From NCBI RefSeq assembly GCF_009363715.1, contig NZ_CP045404.1, positions 3,626,001 through 3,690,000 of the forward strand: a stretch of DNA of 64,000 bases, written 5' to 3'. The position numbers and the translations under genes were made by a program. The notes beneath the pieces are model-generated. The model made no database searches. It was not told the DNA's origin and saw only the letters and a program-made list of their open reading frames with translations. Of the stretch, positions 1 through 23,201 are shown one piece after another. This DNA comes from Roseovarius sp. THAF9. Its GTDB lineage: Bacteria > Pseudomonadota > Alphaproteobacteria > Rhodobacterales > Rhodobacteraceae. Positions within the stretch are counted from its first letter, which is position 1; every line of letters begins with the position of its first letter.

Positions 1-3000
1 GCACCTGCCGCATCTCGGCGATGTAATCGCGCGCGGCCTCCTCGATGGTGAAATGCGGCTCCTCGTCGCCATAGAGCCCCCGCGCCTGAAGGCCATAGAA
101 AGGACGGTCATTGCCCAGCAGATGCGCCAGATGCCGCAGGTTCAGGACATTGCCGAACATCCCGGCCACCAAGAAGAAGGGCGTGCGCGGCCCACCTTCG
201 CCGGAATGCATGGGCACAAGATGGGTAAACCGCCGTTCCGGCCGCGCGGCGGACCCGCTATCGTCCTTTCCGTCAGACTGCGCATCGTCCCCGGTGTCAG
301 ACACACCCCGTTCTGCGATCAGGCCAGCGACCTTGCGGATGGTCGGGGCCTCGAACAGCACGGAAATGGGGAAATCGACATTCCAGGTTTTGCGGATCTG
401 CGCGAACAGCCGCACCGCGATAAGCGAGTGACCGCCCAGGTCAAAGAAGCTGTCCTCGGCGCCAATAGTGTCCACGCCCAGAAGTTCGGCCCAGAAGCCC
501 GCGAGCGTGGTTTCGATGGCGCCCTCCGGTTCCACGAACTCACTGTCGAGCTGTGGCCGCTCGAATGTCTGACCGCCGCTCTTCTGCGTGTCTTCGGCCT
601 GTCCCGCCTGCTGGATCAGGGACGGCAGGTCCATGGACGAGAGGATGACCGTAGGCGCCTTGTCCAAGGCAAGTGCGCGCAGGAACAGGTCGCCCCCTTC
701 TTCGGCGCGGATACCCTGCGTCAGGTTGTGACGGAGCTGTTCCTCGGCGGGCGACAGTGGCGCGATTGTCTCCTCACCGGCCTTGGTGGCGCTCTGATCC
801 GAGGCGGCGAAACCGACAGAGGTCTCCATCCGCCGAATAGAGAAGCCATGGATATCGACGCAGACCTCGCCATCGGGCGTTGCCAGCGTCACATCGAAGG
901 TCGCGATATCGCCCTCCGCCCTGTTGTCACCGGCGTTTCGCACCCAACTGACGATGCGTTCGGGCAGGTCGCGGAAAACCTTGACCGACCGATACGACAC
1001 CGGCACCCAGAGATAGGCCTCGGGATCATACCCTTCGATCAGTTCCATCGCCCAGCCGGTCGCGAGGTCCAGCATCGCCGGATGCAGCCGGTACCCGGCC
1101 CGCGTATCGCCGCGGGCAACCTCGGGCAAGGCCAGTTCTGCAAGCCCCTCGCCATTGCCAAGAGCGGTCGACTGGATCACGCCCCAGCGTGGCCCAAAGC
1201 GCAGATGGGTTTCCTGCGCACTTCTGAGCGAGCCGCCCTTCGCCGCGCGCACCGGTGTGGCGCAGCGTGCGGCGATCCCGGCAATGTCCAGAGGACCGGG
1301 CCTGCGCATCGGCAAGATCGAAATCTGTGCCTGCGCGTTCACTTCCCGCGCGTCCTCGGCACCGCTTTCGACCACAAGCTCATAGCCCGTGTCGGTTCTG
1401 GGAAGGCGCAGGTAAACCGGTCTCGTCTCACCCGCGCCCACCGCCAGCGGGCGCATGAAATACAAATCGCGGATTTCGAACGCGGCGGTTTCCCCTTGCC
1501 CTGCCAGAGCCTCCGCGGCCAATTCCAGGTAGCCAGTGCCGGGCAGCACAGCATGGCCCGCGCCGGTTCGGTGATCGTTCAGGATCCAACGATCCTTGGC
1601 GACGTACTCGGCGGTAAAGACGCGGTTGCCCACGGCGTCGAATGTCTTTTTGTCCAGAAGTGGCAGGCCGGCGGGAAGCACGGGTGCGTCCTTGCCGGCG
1701 CCGGTGCGCAAGGCCATGGCATCGGCGGCCATGCCGGTATCCGCCCAGATCCCCCATCCGATCGCGAGCACACGCGTCTTGTCGCCGGCGCGCGACCGGG
1801 CGTAAGCGTTGAGATACTCGTTCGCCGCCACGTAATCCACCTGCCCCGTTGGCGCGGTGGCGGTGGAGCTGGACGAAAACAGAACCAGCCAGTCCACGTC
1901 TCCATCCGGAAAGACGTCCTCGAGAACGCGCGTGCCGTGCAGTTTGGGGGCAAAGACATTCTCGATCTCGGTCATCGACTTGGTCTGGATCAGACCGTCC
2001 TCGACGACGCCGGCAGCATGGATGATACCGTGCACCGGCCCCATAGTCTGCTCGATCTCGGCACGGGCGTCGCGCAGATCCTCGACATTCGAGACATCTC
2101 CGGCGAGGCAGATAACCTCGCCGCCCGCGTCTTCGAGCGCCTTCACCGCGCGGATGTGGCGCGCCAGAGGATCGCCCGGCGCGGTATTCTCCAGCACTTG
2201 GTCCCAACTGTCCTTTGGCGGCAGGCCGCTGCGTGACATCAACACGATGCGCGCGCTAGCAACCTCGACCAGCCGCCGCGCAAGGGTCAGGCCGATACCG
2301 CCGACACCACCGGTGATCAGAACAACGCCCTTCTCCTTGAGGCGCGGCACTCCGGCCTCCGGGTCGTCCAGAGGCTTGGGCCGCCACACCATTTCATAGC
2401 GCTTCTGCCCGCGCACGGCCGCCTCCAACGCCGCCGGCGGCGACAGGATCTCTTCCAGCACGGGGATCGTGAAGGACGACAGGTCGGGCATGGCCCGACC
2501 CTTCGCCTGCGGCAGGTCTAGATCGAGCGACGAGACCGTCATCTGCGGAAACTCCCGCCCGATCACCCGACCCGGCCCCGCGAGCGTCGCCTTCTCCGGA
2601 AAGAGCAGCGCCTCGTCGCGGACTTGCACCGCCCCGGAACTCAGGACAGTCACATGCAAGGAATGACTCCAGCCTTCGTCGCCGATGGCTTGGGCCAGGA
2701 ACAGCAGGCTGAAAAAGCCCTGCTCCAGGTTTCGGTGGAAAAAGCTCGATCCCGGTCGATGACTTTCCCGCGTGGTCGCCAGCCAACCGTGAACGACACG
2801 GTCGGGCAGAAACTCGCGGTCCATCAGATCGCCGATCAGCGCGTCATAGCTCTCGCGGCCGCGTTCAGGCGACAGGATATAGCCTGCTTCTCCGTCCCGC
2901 GCAAAAGTGTCACCTGCACGGACCGTTATCACCTCGTGGCCCGCTGAGCGCAGACGCTCCGTCACGCCATCGCAAAGGCCCCCGTCATCTTCGAAAATAA

Positions 3001-5836: not shown

Positions 5837-6114
5837 AAAATCACCCTGTATATTACTAAACCTATCAAACCAGCGTCATACCACAAAATGCATTGAGTCA
5901 ATAATCTCTCCCCTATTTTGCGGCATCAAAGCCCGCGCTGTTCATGTCCCGGGCGCAATACCCGCAACGCGGTTCTATTTTCGCTTATACAGAAAATCGC
6001 CTGCGCGGCGAATCACGGGAATCAGCTGATTCTGCCCTCTAATCTGTCAGTGCTCGTTTTCCGAGCTTGCTTATTTTTGGCGTGTGAGGTTGCCTTTGTT
6101 CTCTTCTGTAATCC
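5837..6114. other. Non-coding leader upstream of the PKS gene
   Basis: About 280 bases, AT-richer than the flanking genes, between the PKS start and the end of an IS remnant. It presumably carries the PKS promoter on the minus strand, but I could not single out a convincing -35/-10 pair. I see no gene here. Confidence 0.4.
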
Positions 6115-6823: not shown

Positions 6824-7339
6824 TCAACGAGATACGCCCAACGCTTTCTTCGACAGAACGCGCGCGGGCACCCCCACGGCGGTCGCGCCGGCCGGCACAT
6901 CGCTCAGAACCACGGCGTTCGCGCCGATGACCGCGTGATCCCCGATCGTGACCGATCCGAGAATTTTCGCCCCCGGCCCAACATCGACATGCCCACCCAA
7001 CAGCGGCGCCCCGTTATCACCCCGATTCGTCCCGAGTGTAACCTGCTGGAAAAGAATGCAGTTCGGCCCGATTACGGTATCGGGATGAACCACGATCCCG
7101 TTTGGATGCAGCATGATCAAGCCGCCGCTAATCTGGGTTGTCAGCGGTAGATCCGCACCGGTCACCGCCGACCAGAACCTGTGCCGAAGCGCGACAAGTT
7201 TGCGTCTCGTTCGGGACAGGCGCCGGCCCTCCAGCGCCTGGTACTCCCGAATGCACTTCAGCAACCTGCAGGACGGGTCCCACCAGCGAGTCGGAGCTTC
7301 GCGGCTCCAATCGGCTTTGCTAGCTGATATGTCCTTCAC
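6824..7339 (-). CDS. Serine O-acetyltransferase-like hexapeptide acyltransferase
   Basis: About 171 residues. The C-terminal half is a left-handed beta-helix of hexapeptide repeats (HPNGIVVHPDTVIGPNCILF, then VTLGTNRGDNGAPLLGGHVD and AKILGSVTIGDHAVIGANAV), as in CysE and the short WcaB/EpsH-type sugar acetyltransferases. These enzymes move an acetyl group from acetyl-CoA to a hydroxyl. The protein lacks the long N-terminal domain of true CysE. With its place last in a minus-strand group with an outer-membrane barrel and an export protein, this favours acetylation of an exopolysaccharide precursor over cysteine synthesis. The start is uncertain: the GTG at 7339 is the first start that avoids the upstream gene, whose stop is at 7377; the longer frame to 7456 would overlap it. 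Fold certain, substrate inferred. Confidence 0.8.
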   Translation of the reverse strand: MKDISASKADWSREAPTRWWDPSCRLLKCIREYQALEGRRLSRTRRKLVALRHRFWSAVTGADLPLTTQISGGLIMLHPNGIVVHPDTVIGPNCILFQQVTLGTNRGDNGAPLLGGHVDVGPGAKILGSVTIGDHAVIGANAVVLSDVPAGATAVGVPARVLSKKALGVSR

Positions 7340-7376
7340 CGTGCCATTTCCAATCGGTACTGCAAACTGTGATGCC

Positions 7377-8783
7377 TCAGCGTAAAAGCTCGAAATCACG
7401 CTCCAGCGAGAAGAAAACGCCGTTCGACGTTCCCCGCCCGAGCGGCGCACCCTCATCGATAAACCGATGCTCCAGCCCTAGGCTCATATCCCAGTCTGCC
7501 GTCAAATTGCGCCGATAGGTAAGGTAGACACTCCCCTGTTCCTGACTCACCCCCGCAGGATCCGGACCGTCCACCGCGATATCGGCGTAGGCCACATCAA
7601 ACGAGAGGCTTGAGAGCGCCGTAAGATCAACTTCGTAGCCTGCGTCCATCCGGGTCGTGATGGTGGCGTCGCTCACGATATCACTGATCGCGACATCGCG
7701 CGACAAAGCCACGTCGAAGCGACTGCGCGGCCACTCCGTCATGTATGCGATCCGGCCAATGGGCAGCGGATCGAACGTATCGCCCTGCGCCACCCCGAGG
7801 CTGATATCCAGCGATCCCGTCGGAAGTTCCAGCCGCCGTCCGACCTCGAATTCGTTCTGTCTGCCAAGCTGCGTCAGGATCGTGGAGGCGTCGATCGACA
7901 GTTCTCCGTTCGGCATCTCCCGGGTGTAGCCGACGCCCCCCACAAGACCACTTGTCGAGCTTCTGGCGACAGGTGCGAGCAGCCGTTCGGTGATCTCCGT
8001 GTGGCCGACTTCCAGAGAGAAGACCGACACGGGCGACGTATCGTATTCCAGGCCGAGAGTAATGTCGCGGGTGTCCCGTTCCGTGTCACGGATGTCTTCC
8101 GCCTCGAAGCGCTCTTCCTCGAACGAAAGCGTCGCACGGGCGACAGGCGAAAAGCGGAAAATGAATCCGAGCTGCGCCCGATCTGTGCGGTTCTCAAACA
8201 AAAGAGGATCGGTCGTGTCGCTGTAATCCAGCCTTCTGCTATCCGCCTCGACAAAAAAACCCAAAGGCGCTTCAACTCCGGTTTCAAACCGAAATCCACC
8301 AACGATCTCTTCTCTCGTGCCGCGGCCTCGGAAGAAATCCGCTACCCCCAGGCTGCTTTGCGACAACGGGTCCGAAAAGGCCAGGTCGAGTTTCGAGTAG
8401 TTCGCGAACAGAGCCAGTTGGCTGTTGCCGTTGTCTCGCTCATATCTCACGTTCAGGCGCGGGTCACTCAGGCGGGCCTCGCGGCCGACCAGAGGATCGT
8501 CAAGCAGCCGCAGGACCGACTCCGCCGACAGCGAGAAGCTGTCGATATCCGTTTCGGTGTCCAGTCCAAAGGACAATCGCGTGTCCGAGGCATAGGTGGT
8601 GCCCGCAGAGCTTGGGGCCAGGATCAGGTTGTCGCGTGCATAAAACGTCTGGCTGACACCGAACGTGATCAAACGGCCAGGCTCGCCATCCTGGCCGCTG
8701 GCCGGCAGGACGCCCGCGCCCAACAGGCACAAGGCGCTGCACGCCAGTCTAGGCGCGGGCGCGGATATTCTGGCCCATCTCAT
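7377..8783 (-). CDS. Outer-membrane beta-barrel protein of exopolysaccharide locus
   Basis: About 468 residues. A signal peptide (LACSALCLLGAGVLPASGQ) is followed by alternating beta-strand sequence with many aromatic girdle residues, ending with an aromatic-hydrophobic C-terminal strand (FFSLERDFELLR). This resembles the barrel proteins that sit beside OPX, chain-length and kinase genes in exosortase-type EPS loci, here without any exosortase in view. It is probably part of the outer-membrane path for polysaccharide. The ATG at 8783 lies 13 bases after the stop of the OPX gene; the longer start at 8834 would overlap that gene. The two genes almost certainly form one transcript. Barrel nature is seen; the role in export is inferred from position. 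Confidence 0.75.
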   Translation of the reverse strand: MRWARISAPAPRLACSALCLLGAGVLPASGQDGEPGRLITFGVSQTFYARDNLILAPSSAGTTYASDTRLSFGLDTETDIDSFSLSAESVLRLLDDPLVGREARLSDPRLNVRYERDNGNSQLALFANYSKLDLAFSDPLSQSSLGVADFFRGRGTREEIVGGFRFETGVEAPLGFFVEADSRRLDYSDTTDPLLFENRTDRAQLGFIFRFSPVARATLSFEEERFEAEDIRDTERDTRDITLGLEYDTSPVSVFSLEVGHTEITERLLAPVARSSTSGLVGGVGYTREMPNGELSIDASTILTQLGRQNEFEVGRRLELPTGSLDISLGVAQGDTFDPLPIGRIAYMTEWPRSRFDVALSRDVAISDIVSDATITTRMDAGYEVDLTALSSLSFDVAYADIAVDGPDPAGVSQEQGSVYLTYRRNLTADWDMSLGLEHRFIDEGAPLGRGTSNGVFFSLERDFELLR

Positions 8784-8796
8784 CCTGAGGCGTCTG

Positions 8797-9414
8797 CTAT
8801 TCAAACAGTCTGCGTTGCGGTGCTTCGACCACATCGCCCGGCGCCAGCCGCGTACCGCCGCTTATGCCCGTCGCACTGCCGGCCGGCGTCCGGGAATTGA
8901 ACCGGTACGTGTTGACGCGGCCAGTGTGCCGGTCGGTCCTGTGCAGTTCGATGCGCTTGTCGGCGGCAAATCGGCTCAGACCGCCGGCTTCGGCCAGGAA
9001 TTGCAACAGGGTCGTGCCCGGTTTGACCTCGATGCGCCCTGGCTCCTCGAACTCGCCGATGGCGTAGACATCCATGAGGTTGCTCGTTTCCTCGATCTCG
9101 GCCAGCTCGTCGATCGCCACATAGACAGTGGGCGCCGAGGCGAAGTTGGGAGTGAGCGCCGTGGTCAGATTGCGCCGGACTTGTTCGACCGTGCGTCCGG
9201 CAGCCCTGATCGCGCCCACCATGGGAAAGTTGATACTGCCATCCGGCAGGACCAGCAAACGACGGTTCAAGCTCGAGTCCTCAAGCACATCGACCTGCAG
9301 AATGTCCCCCGACCGAATGACATAATTTTGCGCCGATGCTGTCAGGGCGGAGGCCAGAAGCAGCCCGAGGCCCAGGACGAGCGCCGCAAACCGATTTCCA
9401 ATGCTATTGCGCAT
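8797..9414 (-). CDS. Polysaccharide export protein (OPX/Wza family)
   Basis: 205 residues: a signal peptide ending ASALTASAQ, then a Poly_export domain starting YVIRSGDILQVDVLEDSSLN with the usual PDGSINFPMVGAI strand, followed by an SLBB domain (DVYAIGEFEEPGRIEVKPGT, then LLQFLAEAGGLSRFA). OPX proteins form the periplasmic and outer-membrane channel for exported polysaccharide. Unlike E. coli Wza there is no lipobox cysteine at the cleavage site, and the protein is short, lacking the C-terminal membrane helix region. That fits the short OPX class, which needs a separate outer-membrane barrel; the next gene encodes one. It is divergent from the ATPase/Wzz/kinase genes. Confidence 0.9.
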   Translation of the reverse strand: MRNSIGNRFAALVLGLGLLLASALTASAQNYVIRSGDILQVDVLEDSSLNRRLLVLPDGSINFPMVGAIRAAGRTVEQVRRNLTTALTPNFASAPTVYVAIDELAEIEETSNLMDVYAIGEFEEPGRIEVKPGTTLLQFLAEAGGLSRFAADKRIELHRTDRHTGRVNTYRFNSRTPAGSATGISGGTRLAPGDVVEAPQRRLFE

Positions 9415-9477
9415 GAATACACCTGTTGTTTGTTATGCAAGTCCTGCCTGCAAGCAGATCGTTGCTTTGGAGGGACT

Positions 9478-9675
9478 ATGACAAATCCGACGCGCCATGT
9501 GTATGAAAATCGCTACAAAACATGGTCACTGCGGCAGATTTACCGATTGGTCGAAACAATGCGCGTCCCTCAGGACACAGAAGTGTACCGGTTTCTTGAT
9601 AATGTGGCAGATTCGTGCTGCACTTTCGCCTCCGTGTCCCTATGCAAGGTTCGGGGTGCGCAAGGAGAGCGGTGA
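9478..9675 (+). CDS. Small hypothetical protein at head of the EPS chain-length operon
   Basis: A 65-residue frame from an ATG preceded by a strong GGAGGG ribosome site five bases away. The product (MTNPTRHVYENRYKTWSLRQ, ending KVRGAQGER) has a basic first half and two adjacent cysteines. I recognise no family. It ends 73 bases before the ATPase gene on the same strand and starts 63 bases from the divergent OPX gene. It may be a real small protein or a translated leader of the operon. The ribosome site is the main argument for it; codon use is less biased than in the neighbours. Confidence 0.45.
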   Translation: MTNPTRHVYENRYKTWSLRQIYRLVETMRVPQDTEVYRFLDNVADSCCTFASVSLCKVRGAQGER

Positions 9676-9748
9676 GTGGGTCGGAGCCGGCTCGGGTGCT
9701 CAGGGCCTTTACGTCGCACGACCGCTACAGGGGAAACTTGGACGCAAA

Positions 9749-10603
9749 ATGTCGGCAGACCAGCTTTACGAGTCCTTTTTCGGGTTAACGGAACGGCCGT
9801 TCTCGCTCGTGCCGGATCCCGAATACATGTACTGGACGCCGGAACACAAGCGCGCCTATTCGATCCTTGAATTCGGGATCATGTCCCGAGCGCCGATCAC
9901 TCTCATCACGGGCGAGGTGGGGGCCGGGAAGACCACGCTGCTTCAGAAGCTCCTGTCGGATATTGATGATAACGTCACCATCGGTCTGATCTCTAACGCG
10001 CAGGGCGGACGTGGCGAACTCGTTCAGTGGATCTTGAACGCATTGGACATAAACGTCGACCCCGCGGCGGCCTACGTTCAGTCTTTCCGGGTTTTGCAGG
10101 ATTTTCTTCTGTCGGAATACGCAGCCGGATCGCGGGTCGTTCTGATTATCGACGAGGCCCAGAACCTGTCCGCAGAAGGGCTGGAGGAGTTGCGAATGTT
10201 GACTAACATCAACTCCAACAAGGATGTTCTGATCCAGCTGATCCTTGTCGGCCAACCGGAACTGCGAGATATGGTTAACGCGCCGAACATGAAACAACTG
10301 GTTCAGAGAATTTCGGCGAACTTCCATCTGTCGCGCATGTCCCGCGAGACCGTTTCGCAGTATATCTCGCATCGTCTCCGCACGGCTGGTGGAACGGGAA
10401 ACGAATTCACACGCGAGGCCTGCGATCATATATTCAAGGAAACCGACGGTGTTCCCCGATTGGTTAACCAGCTTTGCGATCTGGCGTTGCTCTACGCCTG
10501 GAGCGCGGAGGAAAACACCGTTGAAAACCGGACGATTCAGGCAATCATCGACGATAATGTGTTTATGAACCGCGCGGCAGATACCGAAGAGGACGGATCC
10601 TGA
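9749..10603 (+). CDS. ExeA/GspA-like AAA ATPase of polysaccharide locus
   Basis: 284 residues from the ATG at 9749. It opens with YESFFGLTERPFSLVPDPEY, typical of ExeA-like ATPases, followed by Walker A GEVGAGKTT (Lys61), Walker B VVLIIDEAQNL, a sensor segment LVGQPELRD and an arginine-rich C-terminal helical part. Proteins of this family occur in exosortase-type EPS loci directly before the chain-length determinant gene, as here: its TGA is immediately followed by the ATG of the next gene. The probable role is ATP-dependent control or assembly of the envelope-spanning polysaccharide complex. The longer frame back to 9497 is rejected because it reads through unrelated sequence and the small leader ORF. 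Confidence 0.88.
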   Translation: MSADQLYESFFGLTERPFSLVPDPEYMYWTPEHKRAYSILEFGIMSRAPITLITGEVGAGKTTLLQKLLSDIDDNVTIGLISNAQGGRGELVQWILNALDINVDPAAAYVQSFRVLQDFLLSEYAAGSRVVLIIDEAQNLSAEGLEELRMLTNINSNKDVLIQLILVGQPELRDMVNAPNMKQLVQRISANFHLSRMSRETVSQYISHRLRTAGGTGNEFTREACDHIFKETDGVPRLVNQLCDLALLYAWSAEENTVENRTIQAIIDDNVFMNRAADTEEDGS

Positions 10604-12157
10604 ATGGAAGACCTGCGCTATTATCTTGCCGTTTTCAAAAGGCGCCTGCCCTATTTTCTTATCGTGTCGACCTTGGTGTCAGCGATATCTGTCGTCGTGG
10701 CCTATACCCTGCCTCCGGTCTACGAAAGCCGGATGGTCCTGCTGGTCGAGGCCCCGAAGATTCCCGAGGACTTGGCAAGCTCGACCGTCCAGACACCCGC
10801 GTTTGAGCAGTTGCAGCTCTTGCAACAGCGCGTGTTCACACGAAACAACCTACTGACCATCGCGCGCGAGCACAACGCGCTACCGGAAATGTCCGAAATG
10901 TCCCCGGACGAAATCATTGGCCGAATGCGAGATCGCACAGGGATACAGACCAGCAACCGTTTCGCGCAGGAAGTTCCACTTATGACCGTCAGCTTCGAAG
11001 CGCCCGTCGCGATCACGACGGCGGCGGTGCTGAACGCGTACCTGGACCTCATCCTGCAGCAGGATACAGAGTTCCGGCGTGGACGGTCCACCGAAACGCT
11101 GGAGTTTTTCCAGCAGGAGCTGGAACGTCTGGGAGCCGAGATTGATCGGCAAGGGGCTCGTATCCTTGAATTCAAGCAGGCCAACACCGATGCCCTGCCC
11201 GATAGTCTGGATTTCCGGATGGACCAGCAGTCCGACCTTCAGGACCAGTTGGCTGAGATCGACCGCGAGATAAACGGTTTCCGCAGCCAGCGGTCCCGGC
11301 TGGTGCAGCTCTATGAACTGACCGGCGGGGTCGAAGACGCCACCACGCCGGTCCAGAGCGCCGAAGAACGGGCGCTTGAAGAGGCAAAGACCGAGCTGCA
11401 GAACGCGCTTGCGATCTATGCGCCCGATAACCCTCGGGTAAAGCTTCTCGAGACCCGTATCAAGAACCTGAAGGCGGCCGTCGACGCCTCTGCCGATATT
11501 TCCAATGAAACGCGCGAGCCGGTTTCGGAAGAAGACCTGCCGCCTGTGCTGCGGGTGCAACTTGATGAAGTCGACGCAAGCATAGATGCGCTCCAAGCCC
11601 AAAAGGAGCGAATTCAGGAACGCATCGACGCGCTGACGACCACGATCGAGAGAACGCCAGAAGTGGCAATCGTTCTCGAAGAGATGAATCGCAAGTACGA
11701 GACCATTCAGGATCAATACGAGCGGGCCGAAGAGCGCCTCTCGGCAGCGCAGATCGGCGATCAGATCGAAACCCGCTCCCGCGGTCAGAGGATCACGGTA
11801 ATCGAACAGCCCACGGTCCCGGACAGGCCCACCAAACCGAGCCGCAAGAAACTGGCGGTAGCGGGCAGCGGACTGGGGATGCTGGCCGGCATCGCGCTTA
11901 TCGTACTCCTGGAATTCATCAACAATACGGCCCGTCGGCCCGAGGACATCATCAAGCGCTTCGGGGTCACACCGATCTCGACAATTCCTTATATCCAGAC
12001 CAAGGGGCAGCGGATTTGGCGACGCGCGCGGCAACTTCTGGTTCTTCTGCTTATTGTGGTCGGGATTCCCGCCGCGCTCTATGCGATCCACATCTACTAC
12101 CTGCCGCTTGATCTTCTCGCCGAGAAGGTCATGGAAAAACTGGGCATACGGCTATGA
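10604..12157 (+). CDS. Wzz/GumC-like polysaccharide chain-length determinant (PCP)
   Basis: 517 residues. An N-terminal Wzz domain has the first membrane helix (LPYFLIVSTLVSAISVVVAY), then a long periplasmic region predicted to be coiled coil (heptad-like stretches near residues 165-215 and 290-390), a second membrane helix (VAGSGLGMLAGIALIVLLEF), a cytoplasmic PEDIIKRFGVTPISTIPY segment, and a third hydrophobic helix near residue 480. Such proteins set polymer length and couple to the OPX channel. The kinase part found in Wzc is absent and is supplied by the next gene, a split arrangement. The gene abuts the ATPase stop codon, so the two are translationally coupled. Confidence 0.9.
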   Translation: MEDLRYYLAVFKRRLPYFLIVSTLVSAISVVVAYTLPPVYESRMVLLVEAPKIPEDLASSTVQTPAFEQLQLLQQRVFTRNNLLTIAREHNALPEMSEMSPDEIIGRMRDRTGIQTSNRFAQEVPLMTVSFEAPVAITTAAVLNAYLDLILQQDTEFRRGRSTETLEFFQQELERLGAEIDRQGARILEFKQANTDALPDSLDFRMDQQSDLQDQLAEIDREINGFRSQRSRLVQLYELTGGVEDATTPVQSAEERALEEAKTELQNALAIYAPDNPRVKLLETRIKNLKAAVDASADISNETREPVSEEDLPPVLRVQLDEVDASIDALQAQKERIQERIDALTTTIERTPEVAIVLEEMNRKYETIQDQYERAEERLSAAQIGDQIETRSRGQRITVIEQPTVPDRPTKPSRKKLAVAGSGLGMLAGIALIVLLEFINNTARRPEDIIKRFGVTPISTIPYIQTKGQRIWRRARQLLVLLLIVVGIPAALYAIHIYYLPLDLLAEKVMEKLGIRL

Positions 12158-12160
12158 CAT

Positions 12161-12194
12161 GCCTTTGCCCCCTTGCCCGCCTTTGCCCCCTTGC
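12161..12194. repeat. Two-copy 18-base tandem repeat in the gap before the kinase gene
   Basis: The 16-base unit GCCTTTGCCCCCTTGC at 12161-12176 is repeated exactly at 12179-12194, giving a period of 18 bases. It fills most of the 55-base space between the chain-length gene and the kinase gene. There is no complementary partner nearby, so it is not a terminator hairpin. It may be a slippage product. Confidence 0.8.
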
Positions 12195-12212
12195 TCGTGA
12201 CGAGGACCTCTG

Positions 12213-13052
12213 ATGGAACGTCTCCAAGCCGCAATTGAGAAGGCCCGCGCACAGCGCGACAAGACCGAAACCGGCGCTCCGAGGTTTCGAAAAAAGCCGG
12301 CGGCGCCCCCAAAAACCGGACAAAGCGACACCGACCGACCCGAGTGGGAGGCCCTTGAGGCGCTGCAGATCGACCGCAAGTGGTTATTGCGCAACAGGGT
12401 GACGACATACGAACACGACGCCGAAAGCGCACCATTCGATCTTCTGCGCACCCGGATGCTCCAGCAGGCGCATGACAACGGATGGCGGCGCATCGGCCTC
12501 GTGTCGCCTCATGCCGGCTGCGGCAAGTCCACCGTCACAGTGAACCTCGCATTCAGCCTCGCGAGACACAGGGATATCTATTCGCTGGTGCTGGATTTCG
12601 ACCTACGCCGCAAAGGTATGACGAATGTGCTTGGCCAGTTTCCATCTCTTGGCACGGCTGACGCGTTGCGGCGAGAGGCCGATTTCTCCGATGTGGCGCG
12701 TCGTTTCGGACCCAATGTGGCCTTCGGCCTCAACAGCGAGCGACGGGTTCAGGACCCGTCCGAAATCCTGCAAAGCAGCATGACGGCCGAGTTTCTCGAA
12801 AAGATCGAAACCAAGTACCAGCCGGATATTGTTCTATTCGATCTCCCGCCGATCATGGACAGCGACGACAACTTTGGTTTTCTTAAAAACGTGGATTGCG
12901 CTCTAATCGTCATAGCAGCGGAAAAAACGCCGATGTCCCAGATCGACGTCGCAGAGCGCCACGTGGCCGAACTCACGAACGTGATGGGACTGGTACTCAA
13001 CAAGTGCCGCTACCCATCGAAAACCCAGGGTCACGTTTACGGCAAATACTGA
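12213..13052 (+). CDS. CpsD/CapB-type bacterial tyrosine kinase
   Basis: 279 residues, a ParA-like P-loop kinase of the BY-kinase family: Walker A SPHAGCGKST (Lys105), Walker A' LVLDFDLRRKG, Walker B IVLFDLPPIMDSDDN. The family autophosphorylates a C-terminal tyrosine cluster and so cycles the chain-length protein between assembly states. Here the C-terminus has only a short cluster (CRYPSKTQGHVYGKY, three tyrosines). The N-terminal 50 residues are charged and proline-rich and probably link it to the Wzz-like partner. It is the last gene of the ATPase-Wzz-kinase group. Function follows family and position. Confidence 0.88.
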   Translation: MERLQAAIEKARAQRDKTETGAPRFRKKPAAPPKTGQSDTDRPEWEALEALQIDRKWLLRNRVTTYEHDAESAPFDLLRTRMLQQAHDNGWRRIGLVSPHAGCGKSTVTVNLAFSLARHRDIYSLVLDFDLRRKGMTNVLGQFPSLGTADALRREADFSDVARRFGPNVAFGLNSERRVQDPSEILQSSMTAEFLEKIETKYQPDIVLFDLPPIMDSDDNFGFLKNVDCALIVIAAEKTPMSQIDVAERHVAELTNVMGLVLNKCRYPSKTQGHVYGKY

Positions 13053-14001: not shown

Positions 14002-16002
14002 CTACAGATCACCTGCCGCATCGAAAACCGGCTTAAAGCTGTTGCTGAGTGCGATCGCACCGGTATTCGTGACGTGGTTGTTGTCGAAATAGAAAATCTC
14101 TGAACCCTGCAACGCGCTACACTTGTCTCCGGAACAGAGCCGCGGCCAGATGTCGATGATCGGAACGCCGAGGTCCGCCAAGATTGCATCGACCGACGCA
14201 TTGCGTTCTTTCAGCTCCCTCCGACTCGTCGTCGCAATGGTGTTTGTCACATCCCGCAACGTCATTTGCCCGTAGACCAGAGCGCGCGCCATTTCCCTCG
14301 CCCCGAAATCAAAGATTTCGGGAGCCTGCCGCAGAACGAACGTCTCAGCACCGGCATCCGACAGGCGCTGTATCGTTTCCCCAAAAGCCTGCACAAGCAA
14401 CTCTGGCGCGGTTTCGCCGGAAATGCGCGCACCGGGCGCAGGTGACAGGCTGATCCGGTTTTGCGCATCGGCCCCGATGCCGCGGCCATCGGCGTAGTAG
14501 GTCCACCGAGCCAGAAGGAGCGCTGCATCAATCGATCCGGGCAGCTTGCTCAGAACCTCATCCATGGCTTGATTGCTCTGCGTACACGCGGCGTCCTCAA
14601 AGGCGGTGGCCGCCTTTTCGGTCTTGCTCAGGCCGAGAAGCGGCGGGCATCCCGCGCGCCAGATCAAAATACCCGGCACGTCCTCCTGAAACGCAAGATG
14701 TTCAAGACCCTCCTTGAAGGCCCGCGCGTGGCTGTCTCCCCAGATCAGCACCCGGGGGGCTCCCTCCGGACCGATCGGGCAGATCTCGATGCCGGAAAAG
14801 GCGCCCTCGCTCGGCGTGTGACATCGGCTCCAGTCCTGTAGGAAATCCCGTGTGGCGAGGATAGCAGGGCGTTCAGTGGGGCCAAAACGCTCGATAAGTC
14901 CGTCTTTTGAATAGAGCACGAACCCGACGCCCAGCACCACTGCCGACGCTGCCAGATACCCCGAAAAAAGAGGTATTGCACGGATGCTGCTACGCCGGAC
15001 CGGGTTTTCCACCAATTTCAGAGACAGCCAGGCAACCGCAACGGAGATGGCAATCAGCACAACAGACATCCCAAGGCCCAGAGCATCACCGGTGTAATAC
15101 TTCGCCAGGGTCACGATCGGCCAGTGCCACAAATAAAGGGAATAAGAGATCGCCCCGAAGAACAGAAACACCGGTGTCGTCAGGACACGGTTCACCGGAT
15201 TGGCCTGCTTGCCGTTCGCAATCATCAGGACGGTGCCTGCAACCGGCAACAGCGCCAGCGCTCCAGGAAAGGCGTCTCCCGGTTCCAGCATCAAGACAGC
15301 CAACAGGATCAGCGCGAGGCCAGCCCAGCTGACCCAGGCACCGATCTCCCATTTGAACCCGCTCTCGCGCCCATAGATGGCCAAAAGCACGCCCGCCAGA
15401 AGCTCCCACGCCCGAAAAGGAAACAAGTAGAAGGCTGTCGTAGCGGATGTTTCTGTGACTACGATACAGGCCGCAAGGGAAACAAGACCGATCGTCGACA
15501 GTACCCATGGCAAGGCTGTCCGGGCCCGCGCCAGAAGCAAGAGAAAGAGAGGCAGGAAGAGGTAAAACTGCTCTTCGACGGCGAGTGACCAGGTATGCAG
15601 GAGTACCCGTTCTTCGCCCAGCACGTCGAAATAACCGGCGCTCCGCCAGAACAGGACGTTGGACAGGTAAACCGTGGCCGCGATCAATTCCTTGCCGAAT
15701 TCGCGGAACTCGAAGGGCAGCAGAATAAACCAAGCGGCGATAAAGCTTGCGAATGCCATCACGTAGTAGGCGGGCGCAAGCCTGCGGACACGACGCAGGA
15801 AAAACCGCCCCAATCGAATACGACCGGTCTCGCGAAGCTCGTCCCACAGGATTCCACCGATCAGAAACCCCGAGATTACGAAAAAGACATCCACCCCGAC
15901 GAAACCGCCTTGGAGACCTGCAAGATTGAAGTGAAAAAGTACGACCGGAATGATCGCAATCGCGCGCAATCCGTCTATCTCGGCCCGATATCCGTGAATC
16001 AT
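14002..16002 (-). CDS. OafA-type membrane acyltransferase with C-terminal SGNH domain
   Basis: 666 residues from the ATG at 16002. The N-terminal half is an acyltransferase-3 domain with about ten membrane helices: YRAEIDGLRAIAIIPVVLFH, GGFVGVDVFFVISGFLIGGI, and HTWSLAVEEQFYLFLPLFLL, all family hallmarks. The C-terminal third is a periplasmic SGNH domain with VLIWGDSHARAF (block I Ser) and FYFDNNHVTNTGA (block V Asp-x-x-His). Proteins of this build O-acetylate surface polysaccharides: the membrane part passes an acyl group across the membrane and the SGNH part places it on the glycan. It is convergent with the kinase group. Family firm; acceptor inferred to be the local exopolysaccharide. Confidence 0.9.
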   Translation of the reverse strand: MIHGYRAEIDGLRAIAIIPVVLFHFNLAGLQGGFVGVDVFFVISGFLIGGILWDELRETGRIRLGRFFLRRVRRLAPAYYVMAFASFIAAWFILLPFEFREFGKELIAATVYLSNVLFWRSAGYFDVLGEERVLLHTWSLAVEEQFYLFLPLFLLLLARARTALPWVLSTIGLVSLAACIVVTETSATTAFYLFPFRAWELLAGVLLAIYGRESGFKWEIGAWVSWAGLALILLAVLMLEPGDAFPGALALLPVAGTVLMIANGKQANPVNRVLTTPVFLFFGAISYSLYLWHWPIVTLAKYYTGDALGLGMSVVLIAISVAVAWLSLKLVENPVRRSSIRAIPLFSGYLAASAVVLGVGFVLYSKDGLIERFGPTERPAILATRDFLQDWSRCHTPSEGAFSGIEICPIGPEGAPRVLIWGDSHARAFKEGLEHLAFQEDVPGILIWRAGCPPLLGLSKTEKAATAFEDAACTQSNQAMDEVLSKLPGSIDAALLLARWTYYADGRGIGADAQNRISLSPAPGARISGETAPELLVQAFGETIQRLSDAGAETFVLRQAPEIFDFGAREMARALVYGQMTLRDVTNTIATTSRRELKERNASVDAILADLGVPIIDIWPRLCSGDKCSALQGSEIFYFDNNHVTNTGAIALSNSFKPVFDAAGDL

Positions 16003-16331
16003 GAACTTATCAATCGATCCAAGACAACCTTCGTTGCGGCAGCGCTTTGCAAACACAAAGACAATTCCGGCCCGTATTATCTGAGCTTTATCACCACTCG
16101 TTTCAGCAGGCTAACTTTTTTGGCGCCTATCCGCAGCCGATGTGCAGACAAGACACAGTCGCAAACGCGTTCTGGAAATCCCGTCTGCAATGGACCGAAC
16201 AGGCACCTTGAGAAATCTATTGCGAGTCACCTTGTCCGGACTTGGGCCAGTTCCGTTCAGTTCATTTGAGTGAGGGCTGACAATCCCTCGGGTTTGCCCA
16301 CCTCTCTGTGAAAGTCATCAAGCGTTGATCG
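16003..16331. other. Intergenic region, no gene seen
   Basis: 330 bases between the start of the acyltransferase gene and the end of the small transporter gene, both on the minus strand. It should hold the acyltransferase promoter. I see no convincing gene, hairpin or RNA. Confidence 0.35.
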
Positions 16332-16700
16332 TTAGTGGCCGAATGCCATCACCAGAAGGCCCGCCACGATCAGAGATAGACCGACAACTCTTGCTATTGT
16401 TAGCGTTTCACCAAGAAACAGCACAGCAGACGCGGCCACCATGACGAAGCTCATCGCGACAAAAGGATAGGCGAGCGACAGATCGATCCGCTTGAGCGCA
16501 AACAACCAAAGCACTGTGCCCACCCCATAGGCTGCCAGCCCGGCAAGCACACCTGGCGACGTCAAGAGACTGACGGCCTTTAACAGGGTCGAGGCGCCTT
16601 CGGCGAAATGCGCCTGCCCGACACCCGCTTTGAAAAGGGTCTGGCCAAGCGCCGACAGCGAAACACTGGCGAAAATAAGCGTAAAGGCGGCGATCGTCAT
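16332..16700 (-). CDS. Small EmrE/ArnE-like (EamA superfamily) transporter
   Basis: 122 residues in four membrane helices, with the ALGQTLFKAG and RIDLSLAYPFVAMSFVMVAA signatures of the small multidrug resistance/ArnE-ArnF type. In lipopolysaccharide systems such proteins flip polyprenyl-phosphate-linked sugars across the inner membrane. Its ATG overlaps the stop of the HAD-UbiA gene by four bases, so the two are translationally coupled. Flipping of the lipid-linked sugar made by the UbiA-like partner is therefore a good hypothesis; drug efflux is the less likely alternative. Confidence 0.8.
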   Translation of the reverse strand: MTIAAFTLIFASVSLSALGQTLFKAGVGQAHFAEGASTLLKAVSLLTSPGVLAGLAAYGVGTVLWLFALKRIDLSLAYPFVAMSFVMVAASAVLFLGETLTIARVVGLSLIVAGLLVMAFGH

Positions 16701-18187
16701 TGCAGTATAGGCTCCAAGGATACGTAGCGGGCGAGAATGACCAGCAAAAGCATCAGGCCGAGAGAGATACGGCTGATCTTGTCCTTGAAGGCAAAGAGAA
16801 CCGGATCGTCATGCACCTTACCGCGACTGGCCCACATCCAAATACGATATGTCCAAAACATGAGCAGAGGAATGATCAGCCACAGCAAGTCCTTTCCGGA
16901 ATAGGTCAGACGGACGTCCGGGTGCATGAGGTATTGAGATAGCGTCAGCAGGCTGAGCGCCGCCGTGGTGATTCCAAAACTCTGAACCACCGACAGTTCC
17001 TCGCGCCAGTAGTTCCGGCTGGGAAGCTTTTCGGCATCCTTCATTTTGAACAGTTCGATGTAACGTTTCAAATAGGCGAGACTGACGAAGAAGAAAAAAG
17101 AAAAGGTCAGCAGCCAAGGGCTGATCAGGATTCCGGTCGCCAGACCGCCCGCGACCACGCGAACCGTAAAGAGCAGACCCAGCACGATCACATCGATGGT
17201 CGAAAGCGACTTGAGCACAAAGGTATAGGTCATCGTCATCACAAGGTAGGAGAGCAACCCCATACCGAACCCAAAGCCTATCCCCCAGAATCCTGCCAAA
17301 AGCGCGCCACCGATCAGCGCCACGGCCACCTTGACGCCGGTCAGGGGCGTCACTACGCCAGCTGCAAACGGACGGTTGCGTTTGCGCGGATGCTGCCGAT
17401 CGGCCTCTATATCAAAGAGATCGTTGATCAGATAGGTGCCGGATGTCAGAGCCGAAAACACAACGAAAGCGGCACAGGCCAGGGCCACGGTTTTCAGATC
17501 GCCATAGGCATGGGCAAAGAGAACCGGGATGAAGACCAAAACGTTCTTCACCCATTGATGCGGCCGCATCGCCTTGATCAGGCCGCGCCGCGTATCAGGC
17601 TTGTCCTGCACAAGGACTGTCAGGGCATCGCCCGCCTGTTTCGACGCGTCATATGCCTTACCCGTCGGATTGACAAAGCCGCGTCCCGCAGCCGCCTGCC
17701 AGATCGGCAAATCGGCGTCGCTGTCGCCCAGATATTCAAAAGGCGCATCGCCGCAATCGCGCTTGATGGCCGCGAGTTTAACCTTGCCTTTCTGGTTCGC
17801 ACCGGGCTCAGTGGCAATCACCGCGTCAAAAACACCGAGGTGATCGGCCACGGCGTGCGCAACCTTGGCATCCGCGGCCGTGGCCAGAACGACGCGCCGT
17901 CCCTCGGCCCGGGCCTCGGCGAGATAGTCGACAACTTCCGCATTGTAGGGCAGACGCGCGGCATCCAGCAGCGCATGGTCGGCAGAGACGCGCTTGATTT
18001 GCGTTACATCACGGTTCATCGCGGCACGAAGAAGTGCTCTGATGCCGTCCGGTTTCCTCAGGGTTGCAATAAGCATTTCCTGTGCCGCATCAGACCGGAT
18101 GAGCGTTCCGTCGAGATCTACATAAAGAGGCATGGCAGCCGGGCTTTTAGCCTGCTTTGTCGGCAAAGCGTGGTCCTGGGCAGACAT
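16697..18187 (-). CDS. HAD phosphatase - UbiA prenyltransferase fusion (DPPR synthase-like)
   Basis: 496 residues. The N-terminal 200 residues are a HAD domain (PLYVDLDGTLIRSD with Asp24 and Asp26; YLGDSDADLPIW as the metal-binding end). The rest is a UbiA membrane prenyltransferase with about nine helices, the first Asp-rich motif NDLFDIEADRQHPRKRNRP and a second, YTFVLKSLSTIDV. The first motif matches decaprenyl-phosphate phosphoribosyltransferases (Rv3806c type), which join phosphoribose to polyprenyl phosphate; a HAD enzyme then removes the 5-phosphate. The fusion would do both steps and feed lipid-linked pentose to a membrane glycosyltransferase such as the divergent GT39 gene. The ATG at 18187 has GGAG six bases upstream and is preferred to the longer start at 18247. 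Fusion seen; substrate inferred. Confidence 0.88.
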   Translation of the reverse strand: MSAQDHALPTKQAKSPAAMPLYVDLDGTLIRSDAAQEMLIATLRKPDGIRALLRAAMNRDVTQIKRVSADHALLDAARLPYNAEVVDYLAEARAEGRRVVLATAADAKVAHAVADHLGVFDAVIATEPGANQKGKVKLAAIKRDCGDAPFEYLGDSDADLPIWQAAAGRGFVNPTGKAYDASKQAGDALTVLVQDKPDTRRGLIKAMRPHQWVKNVLVFIPVLFAHAYGDLKTVALACAAFVVFSALTSGTYLINDLFDIEADRQHPRKRNRPFAAGVVTPLTGVKVAVALIGGALLAGFWGIGFGFGMGLLSYLVMTMTYTFVLKSLSTIDVIVLGLLFTVRVVAGGLATGILISPWLLTFSFFFFVSLAYLKRYIELFKMKDAEKLPSRNYWREELSVVQSFGITTAALSLLTLSQYLMHPDVRLTYSGKDLLWLIIPLLMFWTYRIWMWASRGKVHDDPVLFAFKDKISRISLGLMLLLVILARYVSLEPILQ

Positions 18188-18301
18188 GTTCATCTCCATC
18201 CCAAGAGCGCAAGGCATCTGCTGTGAACACCTGGGTATTGTGACCATTCTCGCGTGCGGCTATCAATAAAAGGCAATTTTGCTCTCGAATTCAGATTTCA
18301 A

Positions 18302-20047
18302 ATGCGTTTCTTGCTTAAACACAAACCTGCGATCCTCCTAACTATTTTCCCGTGCGCGGCACTTTTTTTGCTTGCTTTTGTCCTTCGTGCACTGGGCGTC
18401 GACTATGGCTATTTCCATGGCGACGAGAGGATCTCGGATGCCGCCAAGGTGCTGACGGGGGATCTGATTCCGGGACAGCACTTCTACCCGCCGTTCATAA
18501 ACTACGTGAACGGAATCGCTTTTGGAGCCCTCTTTGCCGTCGGCCTTCCTTTCGGGTGGTGGGATGGCGTCGGATCCTTTCGTGCGCAGTACTTCGACGA
18601 TCCTACGGTATTCTACGTCACCGCCAGGCTGGTCACGGCGGCTTTCGGTGCGCTTTTGGCACCGATCTTCTACCTCTGCGCGCGCCGAATCGGTCTGGCC
18701 CCGGGTACCTCGCTGATCACAGGGTTGCTGGCGGCGCTTTTTCCGCTGGCGGTCTACCAGTCTCATATCGCAAAGGGCGATGTTGCGATGGCGACGTTTA
18801 TCGTGGCAGCCATCGCCGCGACGCTGGCGCGCGTCGGCACAGACCGTCCGTTCCGCTGGGACGCGCTCTTCGGTCTTGCTGTGGTACTGGCCCTAAGCTT
18901 CAAGCATTCCGCCGTGTTCGTGCTTGCGCCGCTTGCTCTCGGACACCTGCTCATCTTGGGCTTTCGCGAGGGCGCGCGTGCCGCCGGGCTGGCTTTCTTG
19001 CGAGGTATCATCGTGGTGTTGATCCTCTGGCCAATCCTAAACATCGGCACCATTTTGGACTTCAAAACCTTCCTCGAGTACCAGCAAATTCAGTCGGTTA
19101 TGTCCATTCGTGGCAACGATGGACCGTTGAGCGGTGTCGCAACCCTGGCCGCACGACTGCCTCATCTCGTGCTTGGGCTAACCCCGGTCTTTGGTCTTGT
19201 CGCCTTGGTGTTTCCCGTTTGTCTGCTCGCACCGATAATTGCGCGGCGATTCAAGCCACACCTGCTAATGATCTGGCTCGCCTTGATGATCGGCACGCTC
19301 AGCACGGCGGTTCTGGTTGGTCCGCGACAGCCCGAGCACCTCTGGATCGGCAACTTCGCTGGGTTCCTCCTTTTGGCCGGGCTGGGTCTGGCCGGGTTGC
19401 TTTCCGGCGTGCGATCCGGCCTTCGCCCTGTGGTCACGGTTCTGATCATCGCGGGGGTCGGTCTTGCGACCTTGGGTGCCGCACGTCCGATCATGCAGGC
19501 CATCGCAGACCCGGTCTATCTTGAGACTGATGACATTCTGCGCGACCGGTATGTCGGTACACGGGTGCTCAGCATGGTCGAAACGGACATACCGATCAAG
19601 GAGGCTGCCCGCGATATGCAGATCGCTCGCTGGGAGCGACTGGCCGAGAAGTACCAAGTGACATTACCTGACATGGCCGAGGAACGGTTGCAAAAGACTG
19701 AGGCGCCTGACGCTCAGTTCATCTTTCCCATGCCAGTTGCGATGTACGGGCTAGAGCACGTCGATGAGGACGCCGAAGACTACACCGTTCAAGCCCATGC
19801 CTGGCCCTTGCAGTCACAGGAATGGCAGTTGGACTACTGGCTGAAACAAGGGTTTACCGTGGTGATCCTCAAGGATCTCGACTACATGCGCAACGAGGTC
19901 TCCTCGCAGCTCATCCGTGCCTTTGCAGAAGAACTGGTCGGGCGCTGCACGATCGTCGACAGTATCGAGCCGAGAAAGCCACTTTTTCTCGAACGAGAGA
20001 TCAGCGTCTTCGAATGTGCCGAGGCAGACGATAATGCGAGTGGCTGA
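18302..20047 (+). CDS. GT39/ArnT-like membrane glycosyltransferase
   Basis: About 581 residues with roughly 11 membrane helices. After the first helix comes GVDYGYFHGDERISD, which has the Asp-Glu pair in the first periplasmic loop typical of PMT/ArnT-type (GT39/GT83) enzymes. These use polyprenyl-phosphate sugars as donors on the outer face of the inner membrane. A soluble C-terminal region of about 170 residues follows. Divergent from the HAD-UbiA gene, which could make its donor. The start is unsure: the ATG at 18302 precedes the first helix and is preferred over the GTG at 18254. The stop lies against an IS3 relic, but the reading frame seems complete. Confidence 0.78.
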   Translation: MRFLLKHKPAILLTIFPCAALFLLAFVLRALGVDYGYFHGDERISDAAKVLTGDLIPGQHFYPPFINYVNGIAFGALFAVGLPFGWWDGVGSFRAQYFDDPTVFYVTARLVTAAFGALLAPIFYLCARRIGLAPGTSLITGLLAALFPLAVYQSHIAKGDVAMATFIVAAIAATLARVGTDRPFRWDALFGLAVVLALSFKHSAVFVLAPLALGHLLILGFREGARAAGLAFLRGIIVVLILWPILNIGTILDFKTFLEYQQIQSVMSIRGNDGPLSGVATLAARLPHLVLGLTPVFGLVALVFPVCLLAPIIARRFKPHLLMIWLALMIGTLSTAVLVGPRQPEHLWIGNFAGFLLLAGLGLAGLLSGVRSGLRPVVTVLIIAGVGLATLGAARPIMQAIADPVYLETDDILRDRYVGTRVLSMVETDIPIKEAARDMQIARWERLAEKYQVTLPDMAEERLQKTEAPDAQFIFPMPVAMYGLEHVDEDAEDYTVQAHAWPLQSQEWQLDYWLKQGFTVVILKDLDYMRNEVSSQLIRAFAEELVGRCTIVDSIEPRKPLFLEREISVFECAEADDNASG

Positions 20048-20106
20048 CGCTTTGCGCGACGGCTTTGGGTCGCTGAAAGACACGCCCTTGTACACGGCAT
20101 GAATGT

Positions 20107-20700
20107 GAGAAATTTCTCGATCCCGCCAAAGCGGGTGGCGTCGGCCAAGTGCCGTATTGACGCCTGCGACGACGTGAGATGCTTCTGAGTGTTTGGTGGC
20201 GATACGGTCGGTCAGCGCATCACCGGCAATCTGCCGGGCACAGCGTGGTCGGCTGTTATAGGCATAGAAACCGCTGCGGGACGCCCCCGGCGTGCGCGAC
20301 ATCAACTGGATCAAATACGCGGCTTGGGTCGCGGTCAAGAACTTGAAGACCTCCGCGATGTCACATCGTTTTGTGCAAACCACGCCGCAGCCTTTGACAA
20401 GATATCTCGTTCTTGGCGCAGCTGCTTCACCTCGCGCCGCAACTGACGCGACCCTTCCAGCTCAGCGCCTGTCAGGCGGTCATCACGTTCACCATCCTCA
20501 GCTTCCGCCTGCTTGGCCCAGTCATGAATCGTGCCAGCGCAGGGTTCGTACTCCGCGCCAGGCATTCAACACTGCGCTCAGCTCGCGCTAGTGCAACCAA
20601 TTGCTCCCTAAATCCCGTCGGGTGCGGATTCCTCGTTCTCGGTATGAAAAACACACTCCCTCATCAGGGAAAAAGTGTCCACGAAACCGGGGGAACTCCA
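20107..20700 (-). pseudogene. Degenerate IS3-family insertion sequence (OrfA and OrfB remnants)
   Basis: On the minus strand, RTRNPHPTGFREQLVALARA followed after a frame change by EYEPCAGTIHDWAKQAEAED and LRREVKQLRQERDILSKAAA gives an IS3 OrfA broken by a frameshift. It is followed by OrfB-like sequence (VFKFLTATQAAYLIQ, SRSGFYAYNSRPRCARQIAG, DALTDRIATKH) that decays after about 90 residues, before any DDE residue. The right end at 20675-20700 (GTGTCCACGAAACCGGGGGA and following) looks like an IS3 terminal repeat. No partner end was found at the left, where the element meets the glycosyltransferase gene. This is a relic. Confidence 0.8.
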
Positions 20701-20708
20701 TAACTGCA

Positions 20709-23201: not shown

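Follow-up and report, generated by a model that had tools for sequence, protein, structure and literature searches.

A polyketide synthase and peptide synthetase operon in the exopolysaccharide locus of Roseovarius sp. THAF9 and its relatives: candidate machinery for an acyl decoration

Why a type I polyketide synthase (PKS) should be encoded next to genes for exopolysaccharide (EPS) export, and where its product might end, are the questions raised by a locus of Roseovarius sp. THAF9. The stretch analysed, referred to as the window, comprises 64,000 nucleotides (bases 3626001-3690000 of contig 1); flanking sequence was taken from the same genome. The PKS gene runs past the left edge of the window and is the first of four genes on one strand, followed by genes for a GT2 glycosyltransferase, a one-module non-ribosomal peptide synthetase (NRPS) and a phosphopantetheinyl transferase (PPTase). 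The PKS and GT2 genes overlap by 4 bases, and gaps of 14 and 8 bases separate GT2 from NRPS and NRPS from PPTase, respectively. Further left, beyond the PPTase gene, lie genes for a Wzx-like flippase, glycosyltransferases, sugar enzymes, a sugar-phosphate transferase and exosortase XrtD (TIGR04152, E 3.1e-184, above cut-off). Wzx, chain-length, kinase and export proteins occur together, the latter three below NCBIfam equivalog cut-offs, a combination that points to a locus of the Wzx/Wzy type. A preliminary description of the window had suggested that the PKS serves the EPS, and that its acid is freed by a terminal thioesterase (TE) and then re-activated and transferred to the exported glycan by a fusion protein with adenylation, carrier and acyltransferase 3 domains (A-T-AT3). 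The present analysis bears out the first of these suggestions, the PKS very probably serving the exopolysaccharide, and leads to a different route: the four-gene operon has, in our judgement, an even chance of being a working part of the EPS locus that makes a short acyl decoration.

Association of the operon with exopolysaccharide genes

Co-inheritance was followed in 149 genomes of the same family, one per genus and including that of the window (the family set). The PKS was counted at ≥50% identity, the NRPS at E ≤1e-250 and a Wzx relative at E ≤1e-60; 12 of 66 genomes with PKS matches below 50% identity were dropped, as was any second piece of a split gene. Scoring covered the best candidates of each genome (two for the PKS, three for the NRPS and six for the A-T-AT3 fusion), further copies being possible. 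The PKS was found in 54 genomes, the NRPS in 53 and Wzx in 57. PKS and NRPS occurred jointly in 52 genomes, PKS and Wzx in 53, and NRPS and Wzx in 51; a single genome held the PKS without Wzx and four held Wzx without the PKS.

The genes are also neighbours. Wzx lay within 20 kb of the PKS at 44 of the 55 PKS places; where both genes share a contig (46 places), the median gap is 3.6 kb. When 20 PKS places from 19 family genomes were inspected over up to about 20 kb per side, the NRPS and a GT4 gene were present at all 20, GT2 at 19, Wzx, chain-length and kinase genes at 18 each, and the PPTase at 14. Twenty arbitrary 20-kb stretches from nine of the 19 genomes, with about half the bases per place, served as a control; with 33 queries, two of them gave RTX matches and a single OxEpi match was obtained, and there was no other match, neither to the NRPS, GT4 and GT2 nor to Wzx, chain-length and kinase genes. 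It is this co-inheritance, together with a neighbourhood that the control stretches lack, that ties the PKS to the EPS.

A second sample, the named set, consisted of the best 80 of 557 NRPS loci with flanks of up to 10 kb. GT2 was present at all 80 loci, the PKS at 79, the PPTase at 71 and one or more core EPS genes at 76. The only locus without the PKS is a contig of 8.7 kb. Among the four loci without a core EPS gene, one is a contig of 9.9 kb, and another, that of Hydrogenophaga pseudoflava, has its export, chain-length and kinase genes slightly further out. The EPS setting of the operon was seen in Hydrogenophaga and also, with another gene order, in Hyphomicrobiales: PKS and NRPS genes are divergently oriented in Aminobacter and Shinella, with no GT2 between them, and the loci keep flippase, export, O-antigen-ligase-type and glycosyltransferase genes despite this rearrangement. 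On plasmids of Ruegeria and Paracoccus the operon genes lie within EPS-type regions, the PPTase of Paracoccus being about 9 kb away. In a phylum-wide draw of 398 genomes the NRPS was found in 15: ten belong to the family of THAF9, and the remaining five, of which one lacked the F-domain part, to its class.

Some loci showed further variation. Two NRPS copies each were found in genomes G126 (contigs C6 and C47) and G132 (C72 and C142), every time with a Wzx gene on the same contig, and in G126 the PKS is likewise present in two copies. An extra adenylation-domain protein is encoded about 8 kb upstream of the PKS in the EPS-type region of a Paracoccus marcusii plasmid (L151, 674-4552). One locus (G097:C17, L171) carries a diverged PKS (40-43%) with one stop in the PKS match and split NRPS matches beside a full-length Wzx, and is diverged or decaying; G097 was among the 12 genomes dropped from the PKS count.

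Domain structure, predicted product and precedents

The PKS frame inside the window (5836 to 2, minus strand) encodes KS, AT, KR, DH and ACP domains. With the flank, the complete open reading frame comprises 2158 aa and its final base lies 641 bases left of window base 1. The C-terminal TE (PF00975, E 1.1e-19) has GFSGG, Asp and His motifs. The earlier statement that the PKS ends in a TE therefore holds for the domains and for the presence of the TE, of which only the start falls within the window; the end had to be read from the flank. An ER domain was not detected in a Pfam scan of the full-length PKS. The protein was aligned with PKSs from 79 of 94 loci; the other 15 had no motif-bearing frame exceeding 2000 aa in one piece and were left out, and a few of the 79 relatives may be one genome counted twice. 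Across these 80 sequences the His pair of the KS, the Ser of the AT, Ser, Tyr and Asn of the KR, His and Asp of the DH, the Ser of the ACP and Asp and His of the TE were invariant. For the KS Cys and TE Ser the counts are in part circular, the relatives having been selected by those very motifs. Conserved catalytic residues in KS, AT, KR, DH, ACP and TE, together with the carrier of the NRPS, mark the system as a hybrid NRPS-PKS.

The NRPS consists of a formyltransferase (F), a stretch without a Pfam match, an adenylation domain split by an FMN monooxygenase (MOX), and a carrier (T). It was aligned with 76 sequences from 85 loci, nine loci without a single motif-bearing frame of more than 1200 aa being left out. 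The formyltransferase gave a Formyl_trans_N match, its residues N92, H94 and D130 were invariant in all 77 sequences, and residues 31-163 are homologous to the F domain of linear gramicidin synthetase (LgrA; i-Evalue 9.1e-07). For residues 288-545 a fold was predicted from 41 sequences (pLDDT 92.8) that corresponds to a portion of a condensation domain. Each PDB match listed is either such a domain or a protein containing one; the lone domains mostly have 410-460 residues, so that about half of the fold is present. A complete condensation domain was rejected on account of this half fold and of the HHxxxD motif, which was found in 0 of 77 sequences. Both features suggest an initiation (starter) module, as does a formyltransferase with its Asn, His and Asp in a protein without an active condensation domain. 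The inserted monooxygenase is of the MupA/Atu3671 type (TIGR04020, E 1.6e-139). The adenylation-domain code reads DILQMGMIWK, a glycine-type code from which the activity is predicted. Positions 235, 236, 239, 278, 301, 322, 331 and 517 (D, I, L, Q, G, M, W and K), assigned by motif in what we take to be the PheA numbering, are invariant in 77/77 sequences; position 330 is I in 76 of them and position 299 is M, L, F or Y. According to the excerpted text of PMC12283262, four glycine-activating domains with a MOX share the code DILQLGMIWK. A glycine-type code in an adenylation domain with an inserted MOX assigns the module, by predicted activity, to the Gly-MOX class. The NRPS starter is likely to be N-formylglycine, possibly alpha-hydroxylated.

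In the route proposed here, the PPTase would arm the carriers. The NRPS would load glycine and formylate it, and the inserted monooxygenase would oxidise the glycyl alpha-carbon. The PKS would extend this starter with malonyl units, reduce and dehydrate, and the TE would release or transfer a short acyl group, which would end on the EPS repeat unit or on a lipid-linked precursor before Wzx flipping. That the NRPS acts first and the PKS second, that the starter is formylglycine, that it is hydroxylated and how often it is extended are deduced from the logic of the domains. One extension with KR and DH would yield a formamido-butenoyl group, and iteration would be possible. The A-T-AT3 fusion is not needed for this route.

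By analogy, the nearest precedent appears to be the capsule PKSs RkpA and WcbR of Sinorhizobium and Burkholderia, which are likened here by setting, as type I PKSs in a polysaccharide synthesis and export cluster. They differ from the present system, in which a TE, an NRPS partner of the layout F-A(Gly)-MOX-T, a GT2 and a PPTase are encoded in one operon within a Wzx/Wzy-type locus. Module 1 of LgrA, with its F-A-T initiation layout and homologous N-terminal formyltransferase, uses valine; here, by contrast, the code is glycine-type, a monooxygenase is inserted, and half a condensation domain lies between F and A. Monooxygenases of the MupA/Atu3671 type inside glycine-type adenylation domains are also found in the systems for myxothiazol, melithiazol and solanimycin (SolF; PMC12283262, PMC10204066). 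These domains hydroxylate a glycyl already joined to an upstream chain on antibiotic assembly lines, whereas the N-terminal formyltransferase and half condensation domain found here look like a starter, and in an EPS locus. The excerpted text of PMC10204066 ascribes the alpha-hydroxyglycine of solanimycin to the glycine/MOX domain, and describes hydroxylation followed by cleavage for myxothiazol and melithiazole. XrtA/PEP-CTERM and XrtD clusters contain the same types of ATPase, chain-length, kinase and export genes, and XrtD is encoded nearby; in the THAF9 locus, however, the XrtA-type genes fall below the curated cut-offs and only XrtD passes.

A wider proposal is offered tentatively and is somewhat improbable as a whole: that an N-formyl-(hydroxy)glycine-primed acyl group, made by the NRPS-PKS, is a covalent part of the secreted polysaccharide in many Rhodobacteraceae genera, in rhizobia and in Hydrogenophaga. 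If true, this would be a sugar coat whose own locus supplies it with a natural-product substituent, and a recurrent 'orphan' NRPS-PKS locus of marine roseobacters would be EPS machinery, not a secondary-metabolite cluster. Genome mining would be redirected, and the deletion of one operon would put the chemistry of a polysaccharide common in marine biofilms directly to the test. It would also fit the accounts of Phaeobacter, which in the portions available (PMC4062626, PMC3910554) name no product for such genes. The PKS/NRPS genes listed there are Inhi_1972/_1974 and Daep_00050/_00048; their numbers differ by two, which fits an operon with one gene between and makes them candidate counterparts, and no tie to EPS is drawn in those portions. 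In the open-licence literature nothing on point was found that combines EPS with these NRPS/PKS features, an earlier description elsewhere being possible.

Distribution of the A-T-AT3 fusion and weighing of alternatives

The fusion was present in the window as previously described. Its AMP-binding match (E 2.4e-26) begins at profile position 159, its PP-binding match (E 0.0004) reaches 21.0 bits against a cut-off of 20.8, and its Acyl_transf_3 match has an E-value of 4.5e-26. A broken gene was considered and rejected, since two homologues have about the same length (817 and 828 aa) and the AMP match starts similarly late, at position 153, in the one scanned. Neither the fusion nor the NRPS came anywhere near the cut-off of the exosortase A-associated AMP ligase profile TIGR03098. 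The fusion family is large, with at least 1159 proteins at E ≤1e-60; among the 120 listed, some A-T proteins have an AT3 match and others have none, and names from cyanobacteria, Sphingomonas and others indicate that the family serves other settings too.

In the family set a fusion relative was detected at E ≤1e-60 in five genomes and at ≥40% identity in four, one of them without the PKS; a 28% match in G092 and a second match in G024 (32%) were dropped. The fusion was therefore present in three of the 54 genomes with the PKS (Fisher p 0.14). The fusion of G024 (71% identity) lies on an 8.2-kb contig with EPS-like neighbours (Wzy_C and AAA), in a genome without a PKS match. That of G086 (49%) has no EPS neighbours that could be found, and the PKS is on a different contig. 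The relative in G126 (41%) has three carrier stretches and no AT3 match, and lies about 22 kb from the second PKS copy. In the named set 79 of the 80 genomes were searched (L143 was left out), with up to 19 candidates per genome and repeats counted once. Three of the 79 PKS-operon genomes had the fusion (36-41% identity), all of them Hydrogenophaga (3/3). It was not found at E ≤1e-60 in the other 76, a search that included no known-positive genome; the query used does match elsewhere. In all three Hydrogenophaga genomes, export, chain-length and kinase genes are found no more than about 13 kb from the fusion, which has an AT3 match, in one case below the Pfam cut-off. In H. pseudoflava the PKS, the fusion and export genes resembling those of the window fit into about 12 kb, with 3.2 kb between the PKS start and the fusion; in the second genome the fusion lies on a contig equal in size to the PKS contig and in the third on a contig of other size. 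The fusion follows EPS export modules and meets the PKS only sometimes, and may be an occasional accessory outside the conserved set. Genomes that have it probably use its own activation step to attach a further acyl group.

This distribution speaks against the route suggested in the preliminary description, in which the TE frees an acid that the fusion re-activates and hands to the exported glycan. The domains are as had been stated, 17 kb separate the PKS start from the far end of the fusion with export genes between them, and the arrangement in H. pseudoflava is more compact still. However, the fusion is missing at ≥40% identity from 51 of the 54 PKS-bearing family genomes and was not found in 76 of 79 named ones, occurs in G024 without a PKS match and in G086 without EPS neighbours, and belongs to a family used in other settings; that both genes favour EPS loci is enough to explain their occasional proximity. 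The preliminary description had itself held the link to be wrong if relatives carried the two genes in unlinked places without phylogenetic correlation, and this is largely what was found. The hand-over was therefore rejected as a conserved route, and for the present locus we consider it highly improbable.

The capsule PKS RkpA has been proposed to supply a special acyl chain for anchoring or priming the polysaccharide. The PKS of THAF9 could likewise supply a lipid anchor or carrier, with the NRPS and GT2 building a head group. The neighbourhood is of the same kind as that reported for the wcbR/rkpA type I PKS genes, which lie within capsular polysaccharide synthesis and export clusters of Rhizobiales and Burkholderia (PMC3908369, in part), and it extends here to Hyphomicrobiales and Hydrogenophaga; a single reducing module could, moreover, work iteratively. 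Yet the lack of a detected ER domain and the terminal TE fit such a chain poorly, and the description of RkpA/WcbR in the cited part of PMC3908369 does not include a glycine-formyl-MOX starter module. An anchor is thus unlikely to be the product, the more so as the THAF9 locus is of the Wzx/Wzy type. Loci of this type do not usually require a lipid anchor. About equally doubtful is a free secondary metabolite (a signal, an antimicrobial or a metallophore) whose genes reside in an EPS island for reasons of regulation or of horizontal transfer. The TE would suit it, relatives of the NRPS exist outside clear EPS loci, two loci have possible dedicated exporters close to the PKS, and two Phaeobacter genome papers class the PKS/NRPS genes solely as secondary metabolism in the portions available (PMC4062626, PMC3910554). 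Against it stand the near one-to-one co-occurrence of PKS and Wzx in the 149 genomes, an EPS setting that survives changes of gene order, and the annotated regions of Ruegeria and Paracoccus, in which an oligosaccharide flippase is the sole annotated exporter near the operon.

The preferred reading, an acyl decoration made for the EPS by the operon, has to be held against several observations that weigh against it. Fisher p-values for the PKS, NRPS and Wzx pairs range from 1.7e-30 to 1.5e-36 and are inflated by shared ancestry within a single family, and the named and family sets overlap (e.g. G088/L094 and G062/L119, pairs with contigs of equal length). At two of the 55 PKS places the sole matching Wzx is more than 1 Mb off, at eight it is on another contig and at one there is none. 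The two places with a far Wzx (G034 and G055) have other EPS genes nearby all the same, and the place without Wzx at the threshold (G062) has a partial Wzx match beside the PKS. The possible exporters mentioned above are a TolC-family gene adjoining the PKS in Aminobacter (L152, 11825-13168) and, in Shinella, a type I secretion pair at a distance of 2.8 kb from it (L153, 6803-10325). Weaker NRPS homologues (41-45% identity) in G144, G450, G176 and Aliiroseovarius have no clear EPS locus, and three of the four adjoin further NRPS/PKS modules, indicating that the EPS association is a property of this clade and not of the domain layout. An acid freed by the TE would need a further enzyme to join it to sugar, and none was identified; that the product becomes a covalent part of the EPS is suggested by gene context only.

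Features of the window and its flank

The coordinates of the features are collected in Table 1. The export module (7377-13052) and the two further acyl or acetyl transferases noted in the preliminary description were all recovered, the module with matches below NCBIfam cut-offs. Judging from the extent of its TIGR03015 match, the XrtA-type ATPase probably has a later true start than the frame listed. The Wzy_C match of the polymerase-like protein (E 5.2e-05, 23.5 bits) is below the cut-off of 31.7.

Table 1. Features of the locus, in window positions unless a contig or locus is named
Feature	Position	Strand	Basis and occurrence
Type I PKS, KS-AT-KR-DH-ACP-TE, first gene of the operon	1..5836, runs past left edge	-	Pfam and flank
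GT2 glycosyltransferase	contig 3624350-3625363	PKS strand	left flank
One-module NRPS, 1563 aa	contig 3619644-3624335	PKS strand	left flank
PPTase	contig 3618955-3619635	PKS strand	left flank
Wzx-like flippase	L007:4728-6095		left flank
Hexapeptide acetyltransferase, serine acetyltransferase-like	6824..7456	-	Pfam/NCBIfam below cut-offs; homologue in 11/80 named loci
Outer-membrane barrel-like protein, EPS export module	7377..8834	-	weak TIGR03016 match, below cut-off
Polysaccharide export protein	8797..9414	-	TIGR03027, below cut-off
XrtA-type EPS-associated ATPase	9497..10603	+	TIGR03015, residues 90-353, below cut-off; homologue near PKS in 6/80 named loci
Polysaccharide chain-length determinant	10604..12157	+	TIGR03007, below cut-off
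EPS-associated tyrosine autokinase	12213..13052	+	TIGR03018, below cut-off
AT3-SGNH O-acyltransferase	14002..16056	-	profile match; homologue in 7/80 named loci
EamA/SMR-type small membrane protein, possible lipid-sugar flippase (putative role)	16332..16700	-	profile match
HAD-UbiA fusion, polyprenyl-phosphate phosphoribosyltransferase-like	16697..18247	-	NF006088, above cut-off
PMT/GT39-like membrane glycosyltransferase	18254..20047	+	profile match
A-T-AT3 fusion (short AMP ligase, carrier, acyltransferase 3), 830 aa	20709..23201	-	Pfam
Secreted RTX protein	24098..28288	-	N-terminal ~630 aa weakly like clan GH-A glycosidases
Wzy/O-antigen ligase-like polymerase	30278..31768	+	PF04932; homologue in 11/20 family loci
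Conserved protein of unknown function	31889..32962	-	homologue in 9/20 family loci

The secreted RTX protein is perhaps a glycanase for this EPS. Its N-terminal part has a homologue in 15 of 20 family EPS-PKS loci, and the predicted model of this part (pLDDT 79.5) gave a best clan GH-A-type match with E 4.3e-07 and a TM by query of 0.30. In 16 aligned sequences the Glu of the SNE-W-N and YEGG motifs was invariant.

Between 16332 and 20047 the EamA/SMR protein, the HAD-UbiA gene and the PMT/GT39 transferase adjoin one another, an arrangement resembling a polyprenyl-phosphate pentose branch for sugar decoration. Near the PKS operon of two other loci (L072 and L083), UbiA-HAD relatives were likewise seen. 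The G+C content, taken in 2-kb steps, is 0.65 in the first 2 kb, 0.55-0.62 from 2 to 34 kb and 0.61-0.69 further on. A tRNA-Arg(cct) gene at 33601-33677 lies near the step at about 34 kb and could mark the end of a transferred island. An ordinary match to RF01793 (ffh sRNA; 57.6 bits) was obtained at 45444-45495.

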